This document shows, piece by piece, positions 44,764 to 63,115 of a DNA stretch of 63,115 bases. Made by a program: the position numbers and the translations under genes. The notes beneath the pieces were generated by a model. That model ran no database searches. It had not been told where the DNA came from and saw only the letters and a program-made list of their open reading frames with translations. How positions within the stretch are numbered: position 1 is the stretch's first letter; every line of letters begins with the position of its first letter. Source of the stretch: an uncultured Desulfobulbaceae bacterium (GTDB lineage Bacteria > Desulfobacterota > Desulfobulbia > Desulfobulbales > CALZHT01); NCBI GenBank assembly GCA_945787445.1, contig CALZHT010000003.1, positions 1-63,115 on the forward strand, in the 5' to 3' direction.

Positions 44764-44967
44764 TCAGTCATTGTCTGGTTGCGCTTTGGGAGAAAACAAT
44801 TGGCAGTTCATACCTGAACTGGCAAAGACCACTTCGCTGGGAAGCTTGAAGGACTTGAAGTTCATGGATTTGCAGCCATACGGGTGCTTGGATTCATAGG
44901 TGATGTAAAAATGAATGCATTTATTGCAGTTAGGTTTTGTCTGCCTGGGCTGTCTGCCGTTCATCAA
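44764..44967 (-). CDS. Small cysteine-rich protein
   Basis: 67 residues with five Cys: CNKCIHFYITYESKHPYGC, then NC near residue 54. The CxxC...YGC...C spacing suggests a zinc or Fe-S site. The centre, GCKSMNFKSFKLPSEVVFASSG, resembles a small conserved family of anaerobes whose members are often annotated only as hypothetical. It starts 15 bases after the HgdC-like activator and is probably cotranscribed with it. Confidence 0.7.
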   Translation of the reverse strand: MMNGRQPRQTKPNCNKCIHFYITYESKHPYGCKSMNFKSFKLPSEVVFASSGMNCQLFSPKAQPDND

Positions 44968-44982
44968 AGGTCTGCCTGCTGC

Positions 44983-45654
44983 CTAAGAATTATTAGTTCC
45001 TTTATTGAGTGTTCCGGCTTCCATTTCCAGGCCCTTAAGCAGAACGAATCTGCCAAGCGGCACCACCTTGCAGGGGAAACTATTGACAAATAGAGGATTG
45101 TCACAAAGCCCGCCTGAAAGATAAAGCTTGGCAGGCGTACCGGCAAAGCGGTAGGCATTGAGCGCAATACCTTTAACAAATTTGGCCACCGCCTCCTCAA
45201 CGCTGATGCCGTTTATCACCGCATCAAAAATATGACTCATGCCGAGAACTCCGCATGTCACTGAAAATGGTTTTTCCGGGACTGGAAGTTTTTGGTAATC
45301 GAGATCATAATAGCGTTTAAGAAGTTCAATGGTGAAACCCATGGAAGCGCCGCACTCAGCATTCCAGCCCATGTCTTTAAGCTGGCCATTTTGGTACTGG
45401 ATGAATTTGATGTCCCTGCTGCCGCAGTCGAGGAGCAGAAAATCCTTCTCCGGAATGAGAGACTCCCCGCCCCGGGCCAGGGCGATCAACTCATTGACAT
45501 AATTGTCTGAGAAACGTTTGCCGTTATGGCCTGTAGCCAAAGATACCCTGGTGTCCCGGGGAAGCTTGTTGGCAGGAATGATCACCGGGCTGGTGTTGTC
45601 TTCGCCCAGGCCCAGAAATTTTATATAGGAGGTGCCGAAGTCCCCAAGGATCAT
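44983..45654 (-). CDS. Short BadF/HgdC-type ASKHA activator ATPase
   Basis: 223 residues; HgdC-type activators are about 260. Phosphate-1 motif GDFGTSYIKFLG; phosphate-2 region LLLDCGSRDIKFIQ, where relatives have DIGGQDTK; adenosine motif YLSGGLCDNPLF. Both segments that carry the dimer-bridging [4Fe-4S] Cys are kept: ECGASMGFTIELL (relatives CAAGTGRF) and SVTCGVLGMSHIF (relatives CAVFAESE). Such ATPases inject low-potential electrons into dehydratases or reductases. GAGGAAAACCAAC precedes the ATG, which overlaps the upstream gene by four bases. Its partner is presumably the product of that gene (inference). Confidence 0.82.
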   Translation of the reverse strand: MILGDFGTSYIKFLGLGEDNTSPVIIPANKLPRDTRVSLATGHNGKRFSDNYVNELIALARGGESLIPEKDFLLLDCGSRDIKFIQYQNGQLKDMGWNAECGASMGFTIELLKRYYDLDYQKLPVPEKPFSVTCGVLGMSHIFDAVINGISVEEAVAKFVKGIALNAYRFAGTPAKLYLSGGLCDNPLFVNSFPCKVVPLGRFVLLKGLEMEAGTLNKGTNNS

Positions 45655-46454
45655 GTTGGTTTTCCTCTGAGTTCCAGAAATGCCTGGATCTTTGCCTTGG
45701 CGCTGCTGCCGGCGGTGACATCAGCGTCAAGGTAGAGGCCGCAGGGGTGTTTTCTGGCCAGCAGCTTGGCCAGGGCGGTTTTGGCGCAGAAGGTCTGGGC
45801 GAAAAACACGGTGGGTACATCCGGGTTGCAATATGCTTCCAGCGCATGGTTTGCAGGAGTTTTGTTTTCCATGCACCGCGTCCAGCCGTAAACATGGGTA
45901 GTATCAGGAAACAATTGCAATATTGAGAAATCCCGCGGCGGCACTCCCCAGAAGCCGAAAGAAGGTGGGCATGATGGGGGCAGGGTGTCGAGAGGATCTG
46001 CTGATTTCACACCCTCGGTAATGGCAAGCATTTTGTCAAACAGCGGCATCTTTGCTTGGCACAGTGGCGTACCGAACTTTTCCATATCCGTATTTTCCGT
46101 GCGGATAACCGGTATTGAAAGGGCATCTTCCAATACGGCAGCGACATGGAAGGCGCTGTCGCACTTGCCTGGTCCCACATCTATGAAAATGGCATCCAAG
46201 TCCAGATGTAATGAATTGACCATGACCGTCCTGAGTATAGCGCAATAGACCCTTGGTAGATAGGGCGCTGAAGTTTCCAGGTCCGCTCTGGTAAGCAATG
46301 CATCAAGATCGTGAATCCTCACTCCGTGCTCGTTGAGGAACCTGATGATTTCAAGGGGAGGCAAACCTACAATGCCAACCTCTTTCAAGCCGGCAGCAGG
46401 AAGTATCCAGTCAGCAGTAGCCCGGGATATTCTTGTTATTGTTGATGCAGCCAT
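45651..46454 (-). CDS. Unrecognised 267-residue Cys-containing partner of the HgdC-like activator
   Basis: No signal peptide or membrane helix. Seven Cys are spread along the chain (near YCAIL, GKCDSAF, PLCQAK, PSCPPS, TRCMEN, AYCNPD, TFCAK, HPCG). Recognisable strand-turn pieces include VGIVGLPPLEIIRFLNEHG, LDAIFIDVGPGKCDSAFHVAAVLEDALSIPVI and TVFFAQTFCAKTALAKLL, which suggest alternating alpha/beta folds. The HgdB/HgdA signatures of 2-hydroxyacyl-CoA dehydratases are not obvious. It sits 6 bases after lptG and is translationally coupled to the activator, so the two very likely form a complex. Function unknown. Confidence 0.7.
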   Translation of the reverse strand: MAASTITRISRATADWILPAAGLKEVGIVGLPPLEIIRFLNEHGVRIHDLDALLTRADLETSAPYLPRVYCAILRTVMVNSLHLDLDAIFIDVGPGKCDSAFHVAAVLEDALSIPVIRTENTDMEKFGTPLCQAKMPLFDKMLAITEGVKSADPLDTLPPSCPPSFGFWGVPPRDFSILQLFPDTTHVYGWTRCMENKTPANHALEAYCNPDVPTVFFAQTFCAKTALAKLLARKHPCGLYLDADVTAGSSAKAKIQAFLELRGKPT

Positions 46455-46460
46455 TTTTTG

Positions 46461-47537
46461 TTAACGGTCCATGCGTTTGATCATGATAAGGCCGAAAATA
46501 CCAATAATGACATGGAGGTTCCAGGAAGCCAGGAGGGGATGCAGATAGGCCGCCTTGGCAAGTGATTCGGCAACGGTCCACCAGCCCCATGCAGCAAAGG
46601 CAAGTCCGCAGCTGATTGGAATGATCAGAGACAGGTCCCGGCCTGATTTTCTATGGAGGATAAGGAGTACCGGTATACCCAGAAGGAGCAGCGGTACGCC
46701 AAGCAGAATATAGGAGAGCCTCCGATTGAAGTCTAGCCAGGCCAGACTGTCATCCGAATCTTCGAGCTGAGCTTTTTCGTAAAGGTGGGACAATGACATC
46801 TCATCCACTTTGTATTCCAGCAGGAAGAAATCCCCAGGACTTTCAGGCATGATAATAGTTTTCTGATCAAAGCTTGAGATATTGTACGTCCCGTCATGGC
46901 GCCTTGTCTTGATCTGGCCATTGGCAAAGGTCCAGGTGTTTCCTTCAGAAGTGACAGACTTTGCAGTAATTATCTGGTTGAGCTGGTGTTGGGTGTCCCA
47001 CTTGATATAGGACAAGTCCACAAAACGGTTTTCTCTCTGATTTGGTCGCAAGAATGTGTAAATCCCCTCAGCGCCACGGTGGTAGATTCGCCCTTTCCGG
47101 TAGATGCCTTTAGGGACGATTTTCTTCACTTGCTCAAACCAGATTTTATTGGAAGCATTCATGGTGACTGGCAGCACCCATTGGGCCAAAGCCAGGGTTA
47201 ACAAGGTAAAAAAAAGAGTTCCTGCCAAAAGCGGTGAAACAATCCGGAAAACAGAAATCCCCCCTGCTTTCATAGCCTGGAATTCGTGGTTACGATGCAG
47301 AATGCCAAGGGTGATGATCCCGGCCAATAGGAGGCATACCGGGAGTATCTGTTCATACATGAGCGGGATCTTGAGCAGAAGATATTGTGCCGCCAGACCA
47401 ACGGACTTCTTGGCCTCAATGAAGTTATCCAGACGTTCAAAGAGATCCACTAAAATGTAAATGATGATCAATGAACTCATGACCAGAATAAGATTTCTGG
47501 TAAATTGGCCAAAAAGATAGCGGTCAAGAACCATCAT
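46461..47537 (-). CDS. lptG: LPS export permease LptG
   Basis: 358 residues, YjgP/YjgQ family: membrane helices at both ends (three plus three) with a periplasmic beta-jellyroll between (about 125-255). Segments: MMVLDRYLFGQFTRNLILVMSSLIIIYILVDLFERLDNF, LLAGIITLGILHRNHEFQAMKAGGISVFRI, and the C-terminal LSLIIPISCGLAFAAWGWWTVAESLAKAAYL. The DLFERLDNF start suits LptG. With LptF and LptB2 it extracts lipopolysaccharide from the inner membrane. Four-base overlap with lptF. Confidence 0.92.
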   Translation of the reverse strand: MMVLDRYLFGQFTRNLILVMSSLIIIYILVDLFERLDNFIEAKKSVGLAAQYLLLKIPLMYEQILPVCLLLAGIITLGILHRNHEFQAMKAGGISVFRIVSPLLAGTLFFTLLTLALAQWVLPVTMNASNKIWFEQVKKIVPKGIYRKGRIYHRGAEGIYTFLRPNQRENRFVDLSYIKWDTQHQLNQIITAKSVTSEGNTWTFANGQIKTRRHDGTYNISSFDQKTIIMPESPGDFFLLEYKVDEMSLSHLYEKAQLEDSDDSLAWLDFNRRLSYILLGVPLLLLGIPVLLILHRKSGRDLSLIIPISCGLAFAAWGWWTVAESLAKAAYLHPLLASWNLHVIIGIFGLIMIKRMDR

Positions 47538-48736
47538 TTTTTCATCTCACTCTTCCAAAAGGGGAACAGTCTGGTACAGGCATTAAAGAAAAGGATAAGA
47601 AATCCCGCTACTCTTCCCTGAAATTCTCTAGCAACAGCATAGACCAGATAGCTTGCTAAAACGGCGCATATAATATTGGGGGTCCACATGGCAATTGTCA
47701 CCGGCATCGTGCCATTTTCGGCAAACGTTTTTCCCGCCGTTGTAAGGATGTAGTAAAAAAGAAAGGTCCCAATCCCGAGGGGAAGACCAAGAGGTTTGCT
47801 GCGCGGTGTTGTTCTGAGGAGAGCCAGAGGCAGGCCAATCACCGAGAGGATAAAACAGCCGACAGGCAGAACAAGGCGTTTATGAAATTCGATAGCATAT
47901 TGAGACCAGCCAAGAGGTCTTTCACCATTTTTTTGCCCTATGTTCATTTTATCCATGAGCTGATTTAACGTCATGCCTCGTTTGCCAATATCCGTTGCAG
48001 CTTGTCCTGCCACGTTTGTGGGCTGCTCAATGGGAAGGTTGAGGGTGTAACGTTCAAACTGGATAGTCTGGGAAGTGTCATCAAAGGAGCGATGGAGACT
48101 GCCATCCACCAGGTTGAGGATGAGATTCATCTCTTCCACTTGGGAGGAAAGATTGCCTGACTTTGCAAGGATGGTAAGAGGCGTTTTTTTGTCCCGCAGG
48201 TCAGATAAATAGACCCCTTTCCATTCCTTGGTTTCAGGGGAAATAGTGTCAACATAAAGCACGACGTCTCCGATCCCTTCGCTGAACTTCTTTTCCTGTA
48301 ATCCTTTTTCAACTTTTTCTTTGGCAAGCTGGAATAACATTTTTTTCATGGCTACGGTGCCGGACGGAATCAAGTAGGTTGATGCAAGTCCAGTAAGCCC
48401 TGCGGCTATCAGGGCAAAGAGCAGCACCGGTGGCAGCATCCGGTATATGCCGACCCCTGCGGCTTTCAGAGACATGATTTCGTTGTCATTGGTCATTTTG
48501 GTGAAGGCCAGGATAATGCCGATCATGCCGGCCATGGGCAGGGAAAAGAGGAGAAGTCCGGGCATAATATAAATGCAGATCCTGATAAAGTCGGCAACTC
48601 CAATACCAAAACCGAAGATGGTATCGAGAACCTGCATCAACCTTCCCAGGATAAGGACTAAGTTGATGATAAGGAGGCTGGCGAAAAACGGTGCCAGCAT
48701 TTCGGTCATCAGATATGTGTAGAGCAGGATCGGCAT
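47534..48736 (-). CDS. lptF: LPS export permease LptF
   Basis: 400 residues with the same topology as LptG: ILLYTYLMTEMLAPFFASLLIINLVLILGRLMQVLDTIFGFG, AMIGIILAFTKMTNDNEIMSLKAAGVGIYRMLPPVLLF and a C-terminal helix set (KRLVLPVGCFILSVIGLPLALLRTTPRSKPLGLPLGIGTFLFYYILTTAGKTFAENG). It heads the operon lptF-lptG-unknown-activator-Cys-rich protein. Presence of both permeases shows a diderm envelope with LPS. Confidence 0.92.
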   Translation of the reverse strand: MPILLYTYLMTEMLAPFFASLLIINLVLILGRLMQVLDTIFGFGIGVADFIRICIYIMPGLLLFSLPMAGMIGIILAFTKMTNDNEIMSLKAAGVGIYRMLPPVLLFALIAAGLTGLASTYLIPSGTVAMKKMLFQLAKEKVEKGLQEKKFSEGIGDVVLYVDTISPETKEWKGVYLSDLRDKKTPLTILAKSGNLSSQVEEMNLILNLVDGSLHRSFDDTSQTIQFERYTLNLPIEQPTNVAGQAATDIGKRGMTLNQLMDKMNIGQKNGERPLGWSQYAIEFHKRLVLPVGCFILSVIGLPLALLRTTPRSKPLGLPLGIGTFLFYYILTTAGKTFAENGTMPVTIAMWTPNIICAVLASYLVYAVAREFQGRVAGFLILFFNACTRLFPFWKSEMKK

Positions 48737-49747: not shown

Positions 49748-51292
49748 ATGCTGCCTCTCGCTCAGTGCATATCGGTTAAGGCCCAACCGCCAAGCCTGCG
49801 GGACAATACCGCAGACCTCGACCGCCTGAAGAAAGCTTTGCTTGACAAGCTTGCGGGACGCATGCCTGTCGTGCCCCTTAGCAGGCTATCGATTATTGCC
49901 GGGGAATTCCGCCGGGCAAAGTTCAACGGGACAGCGGTGGTCAACAATCTCCCCACAGGTCCTGAAATAGTTGATTTTCTAACGGAGGCCCCGGTTTATC
50001 TTCCGGGAATGGCCCTTGATCTCGGCACAACTCATCTGGAAGCCAACCTTGTTGATCTGATATCCGGCAGGCTGCTTGCCAGTGCCGACAGAGAAAACTC
50101 CCAGATTAAATATGGTGCGGATATCCTCTCCCGCATCCATTTTGCTGCCAAGAGTGACGGCCTGGAGAAGATGCACCGTGAAATTGTCCACTGTATCAAT
50201 CTGCTGGGCCGGGACCTGGCTGAGCAGATCCACGTTCAGACTTCTGATATACGAGCGCTCAGTGTATCGGGCAACACTACCATGGCCCATTTTTTTCTCA
50301 AACTTGATCCCTATTGGCTGTGCCGGGAACCCTACATACCATTAGCCAATGCCCCCGATCCCTGCAAGGCCTCTGACCTGGGTCTTGAATTTCATCCCGG
50401 CGCACCCGTCTGGGTGCTGCCGAGCGTTGGTAGTTATTTCGGCGGGGATCTGATTTCAGGCATCCTGGCCAGCGGCATGGATGAACAGGAAAAAACCTGT
50501 ATGCTTATTGATGTGGGGACCAACGCCGAAGTGATACTTGGCAACAGAGATTGGCTCATTGCCTGTGCCGGTGCGGCCGGGCCTGCCCTTGAAGGCGGCG
50601 TGGCCCGGATGGGAATGCGGGCCGGACCTGGCGCCATAGAACATGTGGAGATTGATCCCCAAACCCGGAAAGTTCACTACCAGACCATAGGAAACCAACC
50701 TCCGGAGGGTATATGTGGTTCAGGGATTATTGACCTGGTTGCCGGGCTCTATCTTGCGCAGGTCATTGATATGCGGGGGAAGTTTCGGCATGGTTCTGCT
50801 CCGGAGCAATTGGTTCGAGAGGGAGATGAGTACGCATTCGTGGTGGCGCCTTCTGAAGAATCCGCCAAAGGCAAACCTGTAGTCCTTTCCCAAGTAGATC
50901 TCGATGCCTTGATGCGTTCCAAGGCAGCCATGTACGCCATCCTTACCACCCTGACAAACCAGGTGGGAGTGGGATTTGACCAGCTCCAGCGGATTTATGT
51001 GGCTGGCGCATTCGGTCAGCATATCAATCCCAGGCAGGCGGTCATCCTGGGTATGCTCCCTGATCTTTCCCCAGATATTTATGAACCGGTGGGCAATAGT
51101 TCATTGGCAGGGGCGAAGCAGATTCTTCTTGACCAGAATGCCCGCAGCAGGTGCCTGAGACTTGTTAAAAAGATCACCTATATGGAATTAAACGTAAATC
51201 AAGAATTCATGATCCGTTTTTCCGGTTCTCGGTTCATTCCCCATACCGATCATTCACTTTTCCCTTCAGTTCCTTTCTTTGGTGAAACATGA
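49748..51292 (+). CDS. RACo-like ASKHA reductive activator lacking the N-terminal ferredoxin domain
   Basis: 514 residues. Full RACo proteins start with a [2Fe-2S] domain; here the chain begins directly with the linker-type segment (LSRLSIIAGEFRRAKFNGTAVVNNLPTG). The ASKHA domains follow: MALDLGTTHLEANLVDL (phosphate 1), LSVSGNTTMAHFFLKLDPYWLCREPYIPL, SYFGGDLISGILASG, MLIDVGTNAEVILGN (phosphate 2), GPALEGGVARMGMRAGPGAIE, GICGSGIIDLVAGLY and IYVAGAFGQHINPRQAVILGMLPDL. RACo uses ATP to reduce corrinoid proteins to the active Co(I) state. Without its own Fe-S domain this protein would need a separate electron donor (inference). The next gene begins about 110 bases later. Confidence 0.87.
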   Translation: MLPLAQCISVKAQPPSLRDNTADLDRLKKALLDKLAGRMPVVPLSRLSIIAGEFRRAKFNGTAVVNNLPTGPEIVDFLTEAPVYLPGMALDLGTTHLEANLVDLISGRLLASADRENSQIKYGADILSRIHFAAKSDGLEKMHREIVHCINLLGRDLAEQIHVQTSDIRALSVSGNTTMAHFFLKLDPYWLCREPYIPLANAPDPCKASDLGLEFHPGAPVWVLPSVGSYFGGDLISGILASGMDEQEKTCMLIDVGTNAEVILGNRDWLIACAGAAGPALEGGVARMGMRAGPGAIEHVEIDPQTRKVHYQTIGNQPPEGICGSGIIDLVAGLYLAQVIDMRGKFRHGSAPEQLVREGDEYAFVVAPSEESAKGKPVVLSQVDLDALMRSKAAMYAILTTLTNQVGVGFDQLQRIYVAGAFGQHINPRQAVILGMLPDLSPDIYEPVGNSSLAGAKQILLDQNARSRCLRLVKKITYMELNVNQEFMIRFSGSRFIPHTDHSLFPSVPFFGET

Positions 51293-51400
51293 TTGTCACT
51301 TGGTGGCTTGCAACTTGGAATTTATATATGGTACAAATGGATTTATTTTAAAAAAAAACCGAAAAAGAGGGTAACAGGTTGTCCTGTTGCAATAGGATAT

Positions 51401-52420
51401 ATGGCGCATAATAATTCAAGTTCCAAAAAGGAAAAGACCAAGCGGAACTCGAAGAAAACAGCAAAAGAAAGGCTCCGGGAATTCTGGGACCGGTTTGAAA
51501 AAGATGATAATGTCCTGGTGGTTATCAATGCAGACCCCGATGCCCTTGCCTGTGCTATGGCAGTAAAGCGCCTCCTACGCTATCGGGTTAAAAATGTTAC
51601 CATAGGCTATCCCAACGAAATACGTAGATTGAGCAACATTGCCATGGTGGATCTTCTGAAGATTAGGGCCGAGCGCTTTCAGAACCTGAAGATTAAGGAT
51701 TACAGCAAATATGTAATCATTGATTCGCAGCCCACCCATCTGCCTTCCTTTGAAAATATCCAGTTTGATGCGGTCATTGATCATCATCCAGCTACCAAAG
51801 GCTGGAGGGCTCCTTTTGTTGACATCAGAAAAGATCATGGCGCTGCCGCCTCCATGTTGGTGGAATATCTCCGGGCCGCGGAAATAAAACCTTCGGTCGC
51901 CCTGGCCACTGCCCTGTTTTATGCAATTAAAGTGGATACCCAAAACTTCGAGAAAAAGGCAACCCTGGCAGATGCCATCTCATTTCGTTACTTATTCAAT
52001 ATTGCCAACCAGAACCTGGTGCGCAAAATTGAGCTTTCTGAGTTGCGCATTTCCGAACTGAACTACTTCAAAACGGCCCTTGCCGAGATGAAGGTCAGCA
52101 AGAAGAGGCTCTATGCCCATGTCGGCAGGGTCAGAAATCCTGATATCCTGGTGATCATTGCCGATTTTTTCAACCACGTCAATCGGGTATCCTGGGCCTT
52201 TGTTTCCGGAATCCATGGCGAGCGATTGGTAGTGATCTTCCGTTGCGATGGCTATAAGAAGAATGCCGGAAAATTGGCAGAGAAAATTTTTGGCGATAGG
52301 GGGTCGGCTGGAGGGCACCGTGAAGCTGCCCGTGCTGAAGTGCCATTAAAAAATCTGCTCACAGAAGATGAAGAATTCACCACTGAGATGCTTAAAAAGC
52401 TGACCACAAAACATTTATAA
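51401..52420 (+). CDS. DHH-family phosphoesterase
   Basis: 339 residues from the ATG at 51401 (MAHNNSSSKKEKTKRN), preceded by AGGATAT; a TTG at 51293 would add 36 residues. Motif I reads VVINADPDALACAMAVKRLL, the DHH motif is AVIDHHP, and DHGAAASMLVEYL and YAIKVDTQNF complete the metal site. A DHHA1-like C-terminal domain holds GGHREAARAEVPL. The N-terminal basic, Ser/Lys-rich tail is unusual. Likely a nanoRNase/pAp or cyclic-dinucleotide-type phosphodiesterase; substrate not determined. Confidence 0.85.
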   Translation: MAHNNSSSKKEKTKRNSKKTAKERLREFWDRFEKDDNVLVVINADPDALACAMAVKRLLRYRVKNVTIGYPNEIRRLSNIAMVDLLKIRAERFQNLKIKDYSKYVIIDSQPTHLPSFENIQFDAVIDHHPATKGWRAPFVDIRKDHGAAASMLVEYLRAAEIKPSVALATALFYAIKVDTQNFEKKATLADAISFRYLFNIANQNLVRKIELSELRISELNYFKTALAEMKVSKKRLYAHVGRVRNPDILVIIADFFNHVNRVSWAFVSGIHGERLVVIFRCDGYKKNAGKLAEKIFGDRGSAGGHREAARAEVPLKNLLTEDEEFTTEMLKKLTTKHL

Positions 52421-62380: not shown

Positions 62381-63115
62381 TTACCGTAAAAGGCCGATCA
62401 GCCGGTCGGCAAGCCTTTCACTTGAAAAGACAAGCGATTCAAGATCAAGGAAATCAAGGATGTTATGGTCAAAAAGGATTTTGACCCTTGGTTCGAATCC
62501 TTCTGCCGGTTCACTTTCCCAGAAAAGAATCTGCTGAGGAACCATGGGAAGGACCGGAATCTGAAAGGCCAGAGACGCCGTTTCATTGGGTACAAGTTCA
62601 CCGCCCATTTCCGCGCAGGTATTGAGGATTTTCTGTTGTTCACAACGGTCAAAGAGTTCTGCCAGTCGGTTTTCACAATACACGGCCAGTGTCTTTATCT
62701 TGGAGATGGAGTTAGGCAGGCTTTCCATGCCGATCCAATTGTGGTCAGGTGATTTTCCCCCTTGGGAATGAATATAATTATATAGCAGAATTTGATCCCG
62801 AGGGTCTTCCGGGTCCCGGCCATTAATGGTAATGAGGTTTTTTGTCAGAAGGATTTCTTGGCCGAGATAAATAAACCGTAAGGTGTCCGGCAATGAGATG
62901 TCGACCTCCAAGCCGAGGGGTTCGGCGATTTCAGCAAAAACCAGCGGGGCTATCTTTTGATTGAGGTGTTCTACAAGGGCGAGATCTCTATCCTTTGTAA
63001 GATCTTCAGCATGACCAACGGTCTGTTGGGAAAGAGGCAGACCTTCCAGGTCGATATATGGACAGCTGCTTGGATCCGCGCCGGTTTTGGCAACTGCCGC
63101 AGCATAGGCCAAACA
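62381..63115 (-). CDS. DUF3786 protein with remnant of an N-terminal Fe-S domain, 5' end outside window
   Basis: At least 244 codons are in the window and the frame stays open to its edge. The first residues, LAYAAAVAKTGADPSSCPYI, are the end of the four-Cys [4Fe-4S] domain found in corrinoid/CODH-linked proteins (C-x2-C...C-LAFA-x-V-x-G), followed by DUF3786 (about 60-243: LPDTLRFIYLGQEILLTKNLITINGRDPEDPRDQILLYNYIHSQGG, PVLPMVPQQILFWESEPAEGFEPRVKILFDHNILDFLDLESLVF). The family occurs in anaerobes with C1 or corrinoid chemistry and has no assigned reaction. Convergent with the HD-GYP gene. Confidence 0.82.
   Translation of the reverse strand, partial: CLAYAAAVAKTGADPSSCPYIDLEGLPLSQQTVGHAEDLTKDRDLALVEHLNQKIAPLVFAEIAEPLGLEVDISLPDTLRFIYLGQEILLTKNLITINGRDPEDPRDQILLYNYIHSQGGKSPDHNWIGMESLPNSISKIKTLAVYCENRLAELFDRCEQQKILNTCAEMGGELVPNETASLAFQIPVLPMVPQQILFWESEPAEGFEPRVKILFDHNILDFLDLESLVFSSERLADRLIGLLR

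Follow-up and report, generated by a model that had tools for sequence, protein, structure and literature searches.

The DNA analysed here (the window, 63,115 nucleotides in full) belongs to a 4.46-Mb genome in 227 contigs (G000), the close relatives of which are Desulfobulbales. Its minus strand carries, in the order of transcription, lptF (47534-48736), lptG (46461-47537), a gene for a protein of 267 residues (45651-46454), a gene for an activator of 223 residues (44983-45654) and an open reading frame for a mini-protein of 67 residues (44764-44967). Both lptG and lptF were recognised by PF03739, at E-values of 2e-67 and 4e-76, respectively. The activator is assigned to the HgdC/DCCP-R-type ASKHA ATPases on the basis of sequence and fold matches, and the 267-residue protein, referred to below as the partner, is delimited by its open reading frame, its homologues and a model with the HGD-D fold. 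The end of the partner gene and the start of the activator gene overlap by 4 bases (45651-45654); an overlap of the same length joins lptF to lptG, and lptG is separated from the partner gene by six bases. The initial annotation of this DNA had placed three minus-strand reading frames behind lptFG, which agrees with these coordinates. It had also proposed translational coupling of the activator and the 267-residue protein, and the 4-base overlap is indeed seen both here and in homologous pairs.

Distribution of the gene pair

Orthologues of the partner are present in 54 of 58 relatives and in 153 of the 193 genomes of the class, and the partner and activator are thus genes rather than chance reading frames. 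Losses of the partner cluster in a small number of genera, g275 (family f12) and g24 (family f11) in particular. Outside the class, 395 genomes of the phylum were sampled, and the partner was found in two lineages only, f31 and f53, at about 59% and 42% identity, respectively; a profile search of the same 395 genomes yielded, beyond these two lineages, a single match to a fragment (E 0.006). No relative of the partner was found in a scan of viral contigs; a contig scan with exact peptide patterns taken from the partner is of a kind that finds close relatives only. The f31 and f53 sequences each form one group in the tree, with a long branch for f53.

Wherever the contig extends far enough beyond the partner gene, the activator gene lies just downstream of it, on the same strand. 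The spacing was measured for 121 same-strand pairs, most of which overlap or touch, typically by 4 bases, with a few lying up to 300 bases apart. The pairwise distances of partner and activator are correlated (0.88, 118 loci). Constant linkage of the two genes in other genomes, one of the two points on which the proposal of a module had been staked beforehand, was therefore found. No paper naming the partner/activator pair was found in the literature. One genome (G009) has two different copies of the pair (G009:C33, locus L054, and G009:C27, locus L067), with partners 71% and 66% identical to that of the window, although contamination (4%) is possible in this case.

The mini-protein does not share this distribution. 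It had been described as having five cysteines, but four were counted, C14, C17, C32 and C55, all of which are conserved. It was considered as a third component of the module and rejected, because it was found in 15 of 20 relatives lacking the pair and was missing from 5 of 20 genomes containing it. The initial inclusion of a Cys-rich protein in the module is thus abandoned. The mini-protein is co-operonic with the pair in the window, but it is not an obligate component and only travels with the operon in some families. In a Desulfobulbus-type lineage, it is replaced by a DUF362 (PF04015) gene overlapping the end of the activator gene by 4 bases (L075:9474-10295, for example, and also L076, L093, L107 and L109).

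Predicted folds and conserved cysteines

The activator matches TIGR00241 at 1.2e-10 (41.4 of 125.4 bits) and PF01869 at an E-value of 0.01 (15.8 of 31.5 bits), in both cases under the curated cut-off. Its best sequence match in the PDB is DCCP-R (7yyl, 4.6e-9), the reductase of the double-cubane cluster protein (DCCP) of Carboxydothermus (6eno, 7yyl, 7yzm). The structure model of the activator (pLDDT 91.7) aligns with DCCP-R (7yyl_E) over 215 of its 223 residues, with a Z score of 21.7 and an rmsd of 2.6; the Z scores are 19.6–21.6 for the activators of benzoyl-CoA reductase and of dehydratases, and at most 16.5 for pantothenate kinases. C101 and C134 occupy the positions of the cluster cysteine pair in known activases, and both are invariant in 130 homologues; D5-G7-K12 (DFG..K) and the GSRDxK, ECGAS and LSGG/SGG motifs are also invariant. 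Details of the nucleotide motifs, such as DCGSRD where known activases have DIGGQD, mark the activator as a separate subfamily. For comparison, DCCP-R has 243 residues and HgdC about 260-270. The fold alignment begins at residue 1 of the activator, which is therefore a complete protein, short through trimmed loops. The predicted protein is, thus, a complete but trimmed HgdC-type ATPase, and its first description, as a short HgdC-like activator keeping both cluster cysteines and the nucleotide motifs, fits the invariance of C101, C134 and the ASKHA residues.

The partner of 267 residues gave no above-threshold match to Pfam or NCBIfam and no sequence match in the PDB. The HGD-D model (PF06050, curated cut-off 28.4 bits) was touched weakly by 19 of 64 partner homologues, with a best E-value of 9e-5, and gave no match at all to the partner of the window. 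The sole PDB profile match was HadC (E 0.8 and 0.044), and whole-length alignment with DCCP-like proteins by hhalign was weak (Prob 0.5), C71 and C98 being aligned nonetheless. Structure prediction, which had been suggested as a check, gave a confident AlphaFold2 model (pLDDT 86, pTM 0.84) with the fold of Fe-S-binding HGD-D proteins. Foldseek returned five significant matches for this model, two chains of 3-methylbenzoyl-CoA reductase, BzdN and two chains of DCCP. In fold comparisons with VIA-align, the Z scores were 14.7 for DCCP (7yzm_A, 229 residues), 14.6 for HadC, 14.4 for MbdN and 13.9 for BzdN, with alignments spanning 229-235 residues. The ten best matches were all HGD-D proteins (Z 10.8-14.7, 226-240 residues) and the first unrelated fold had a Z score of 6.9; within the limits of a prediction, this settles the fold of the partner. 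The model has the two-lobed alpha/beta HGD-D fold found in DCCP, 2-hydroxyacyl-CoA dehydratases and class I benzoyl-CoA reductases, with a conserved core of about 245 residues, as against 374-422 in the DCCP, HadC, MbdN and BzdN chains and 374-429 in all the solved members compared. The partner had been held not to be a known dehydratase subunit, and this stands for the sequence, for which no family model exceeds its threshold, but not for the predicted fold and the cluster cysteines, which are those of the HGD-D/DCCP proteins. The suggestion of a new enzyme type is reduced accordingly: the partner is a divergent miniature branch of the HGD-D superfamily rather than a wholly new type of enzyme.

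Four cysteines of the partner, C71, C98, C194 and C223, are invariant in 122 homologues, including those of f31 and f53; C132 is nearly invariant and C162 is absent from f53. These positions were compared with those of A3, a reference set of DCCP-like proteins found in relatives; the A3 proteins match DCCP itself at 3e-160. In three of four MAFFT runs, C71, C98, C194 and C223 fell on C146, C176, C341 and C407 of the DCCP-like proteins, leaving C108 and C374/C376 of the latter with no counterpart in the partner; the fourth mode (BLOSUM30) put C223 on the fourth DCCP cysteine. The assignment of C71, C98 and C223 was obtained independently with hhalign, which, in an alignment of the C-terminal half, matched the region around C194 to the fifth ligand motif, not the fourth; C194 could therefore match either ligand. 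In BzdN, a double cubane is held by six cysteines (Cys36/73/100/263/293/327), whereas BzdO binds its catalytic [4Fe-4S] cluster through Cys95/128/380, with a free site, and the position of this cluster is that of the proximal half of the double cubane (PMC11971306). The three-cysteine [4Fe-4S] ligand set of HGD-D proteins is present in the partner as the aligned and invariant C71, C98 and C223, and only four positions of the six-cysteine [8Fe-9S] set of DCCP are kept. By analogy, the partner would retain three [4Fe-4S] ligands and one cysteine of the distal, double-cubane site, a four-cysteine set that would match neither the BzdN nor the BzdO arrangement. A canonical double cubane with six protein thiolates could presumably not form, and, with two of the six ligands gone, the type of cluster in the partner is uncertain.

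Comparison with known systems and a proposed mechanism

The pair is interpreted here as a minimal ATP-driven reductase of the HgdC/HgdB superfamily, with a design closest to that of DCCP-R:DCCP, an interpretation to which we would assign a probability of about 0.6. The motifs of the activator and the structure models give good support to its predicted role as an electron injector serving a dedicated partner. In this superfamily, the activator is a dimer with one bridging [4Fe-4S] cluster; ATP binding and hydrolysis cause a conformational change, and a very-low-potential electron passes to the cluster of the acceptor. For the pair, the analysis establishes the gene pairing, the predicted folds, the invariant cysteines and the distribution; the cluster, the use of ATP and the direction of electron flow are inferred by analogy. 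One [4Fe-4S] cluster would lie between the subunits of the activator dimer, on C101 and C134 of each, and ATP would be bound in the ASKHA clefts of the activator, which would dock on the partner. On ATP hydrolysis, the activator would push one very-low-potential electron into the partner, the Fe-S cluster of which would be held between two small alpha/beta lobes by C71, C98 and C223; C194 would serve as a fourth ligand or as an active-site thiol. The partner would spend this electron on the reduction of a small substrate that is unlikely to be a CoA thioester; that the partner is itself the catalyst is a guess, as is the kind of substrate.

Since there is a single acceptor gene and the activator most resembles DCCP-R, DCCP:DCCP-R is a nearer working model than a heterodimeric dehydratase. 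Known substrates of DCCP are acetylene, hydrazine and azide. Both systems combine one acceptor gene with one activator, DCCP and DCCP-R give the best fold match for the respective proteins, and four of the six cluster cysteines of DCCP have an aligned counterpart in the partner. Unlike DCCP, the partner is about 40% smaller, lacks ligands 1 and 5, and hence a canonical [8Fe-9S] set, and has a sequence similarity below family thresholds. The (R)-2-hydroxyisocaproyl-CoA dehydratase HadBC, with HadI as its activator (3o3m/n/o, 4eht/4ehu), resembles the pair in the fold of the partner, in the three-cysteine [4Fe-4S] positions (C71, C98 and C223) and in the fold of the activator, but its larger subunits form a heterodimer that acts on CoA esters, whereas a single small partner is encoded here. 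The folds of partner and activator are also shared with the class I benzoyl-CoA reductases BzdNOPQ and MbdONPQ (8s02, 9gai), as is, putatively, a low-potential Fe-S chemistry; these enzymes have four different subunits, a double cubane in addition to a [4Fe-4S] cluster and a CoA pocket, none of which is seen in the pair. The corrinoid reductive activases RACo and AcsV (PF14574) would have in common with it the ATP-driven delivery of electrons by an ASKHA protein, but they differ from the activator in family and architecture, and occur as a genomic neighbour the linkage of which is not constant.

No protein was recognised in the window genome in a search with PF06050, so the partner is the only evident client of the activator, a protein of 1451 residues apart. 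The latter (G000:C14:32763-34142) is an open frame with two BcrAD_BadFG domains and is possibly a PlsA-like plasmalogen synthase.

The superfamily itself is already known, and what is new here is most likely a divergent miniature HGD-D branch with its own activator. To our knowledge, ATP-driven electron injectors serve solely for reductions that ordinary reductants cannot achieve, and the number of characterised acceptor types is small. The pair is kept by about four fifths of the class, to which cable bacteria belong, and curated models recognise neither protein; its retention points to a basic anaerobic reaction so far unnamed. The partner, being far smaller than the solved HGD-D members, may also provide a tractable model for the way in which these proteins hold and drive low-potential clusters. 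A more far-reaching proposal would make the pair the first known member of a distinct class of minimal ATP-driven reductases, with a new four-cysteine cluster site and a reduction common to most Desulfobulbales; it is put forward tentatively, the odds being somewhat against it.

Neighbouring genes and alternative explanations

A RACo-like ATPase is encoded on the plus strand of the window (49748-51292; PF14574, PF17651), and no N-terminal ferredoxin (Fer2) domain was recognised in it. Short RACo-like genes were sorted by hand (open frames of 515-600 residues with at least 280 bits, or split), and upstream neighbours were counted at the 57 loci for which 5 kb or more of upstream sequence was available. 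A short RACo-like gene lies near the pair at 43 of these loci; among genomes with the pair, 12 of 20 have such a gene, versus 1 of 29 among those without it. The pair might be an ATP-driven relay that works with the neighbouring short RACo-like ATPase in the reductive activation of another metalloenzyme, such as a corrinoid protein. A small acceptor could also pass electrons to another protein instead of being a catalyst. Two f31 genomes are consistent with this explanation, in that they contain both the pair and the RACo-like gene, at separate places. Five Desulfobulbus-type and two f53 genomes pull the other way, having the pair but no short RACo-like gene, and no corrinoid protein was recognised by eye near the RACo-like gene in f31. 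The two genes are usually neighbours, so that shared gene order partly explains the correlation and their co-occurrence is weak evidence of a functional link; we consider a relay unlikely in comparison with a minimal reductase. A gene for a DHH-type phosphoesterase (51293-52420, plus strand) follows directly behind the RACo-like gene, and such a gene is found near the pair at 40 of the 57 loci.

The gene lptG lies upstream of the pair at 48 of the 57 loci, and lptF at 21. Neither is present at several Desulfobulbales loci (those of the cable-bacterium type among them) or at the f31 and f53 loci. lptFG was tried as a functional partner and rejected, as its linkage to the pair is not constant; the coupling to LPS export permeases remarked on in the initial annotation amounts to local gene order. 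In f31 (L134, L135 and L136), the pair is directly upstream of lysS, followed by lolC-lolD-bamA-lpxD-fabZ; the junction with lysS is also found at locus L120, and the f53 loci have mixed neighbours. The position behind lptFG could be accounted for if the pair acted on lipid A or another membrane lipid, like the anaerobic plasmalogen synthase PlsA. The frequency of lptG and the envelope genes downstream of the f31 pair would fit such a role, and anaerobes are known to have reductases that make alkenyl-ether lipids from diacyl lipids (PMC9702350). This explanation is nevertheless distinctly improbable, though less so than the two that follow, given that there is no adjacent envelope gene in f53 or at several Desulfobulbales loci, that the partner is a soluble-looking protein with about 245 conserved residues and that the possibly PlsA-like protein of 1451 residues is encoded elsewhere in the genome.

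The failure of both proteins to reach curated cut-offs might be taken to mean that the activator is no more than an ordinary kinase-like ASKHA protein and that the fold of the partner is a relic with no Fe-S function. In both proteins, however, the cluster cysteines remain invariant when the two outside lineages are included, and kinases score 5 Z units below DCCP-R as matches to the activator, which leaves this idea very little room. The similar fold and type of activator might suggest a canonical 2-hydroxyacyl-CoA dehydratase or class I benzoyl-CoA reductase, the second subunit of which has been overlooked. This is hardly credible, because no second HGD-D subunit is encoded nearby (the loci read have one partner gene only), PF06050 matches are absent from the genome, and the partner differs from every chain compared in length, ligand set and sequence. 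The local cluster of the window contains no acyl-CoA gene. At the end of the window, on the minus strand (62381-63112), lies a gene for a DUF3786 protein (PF12654, 3e-36).
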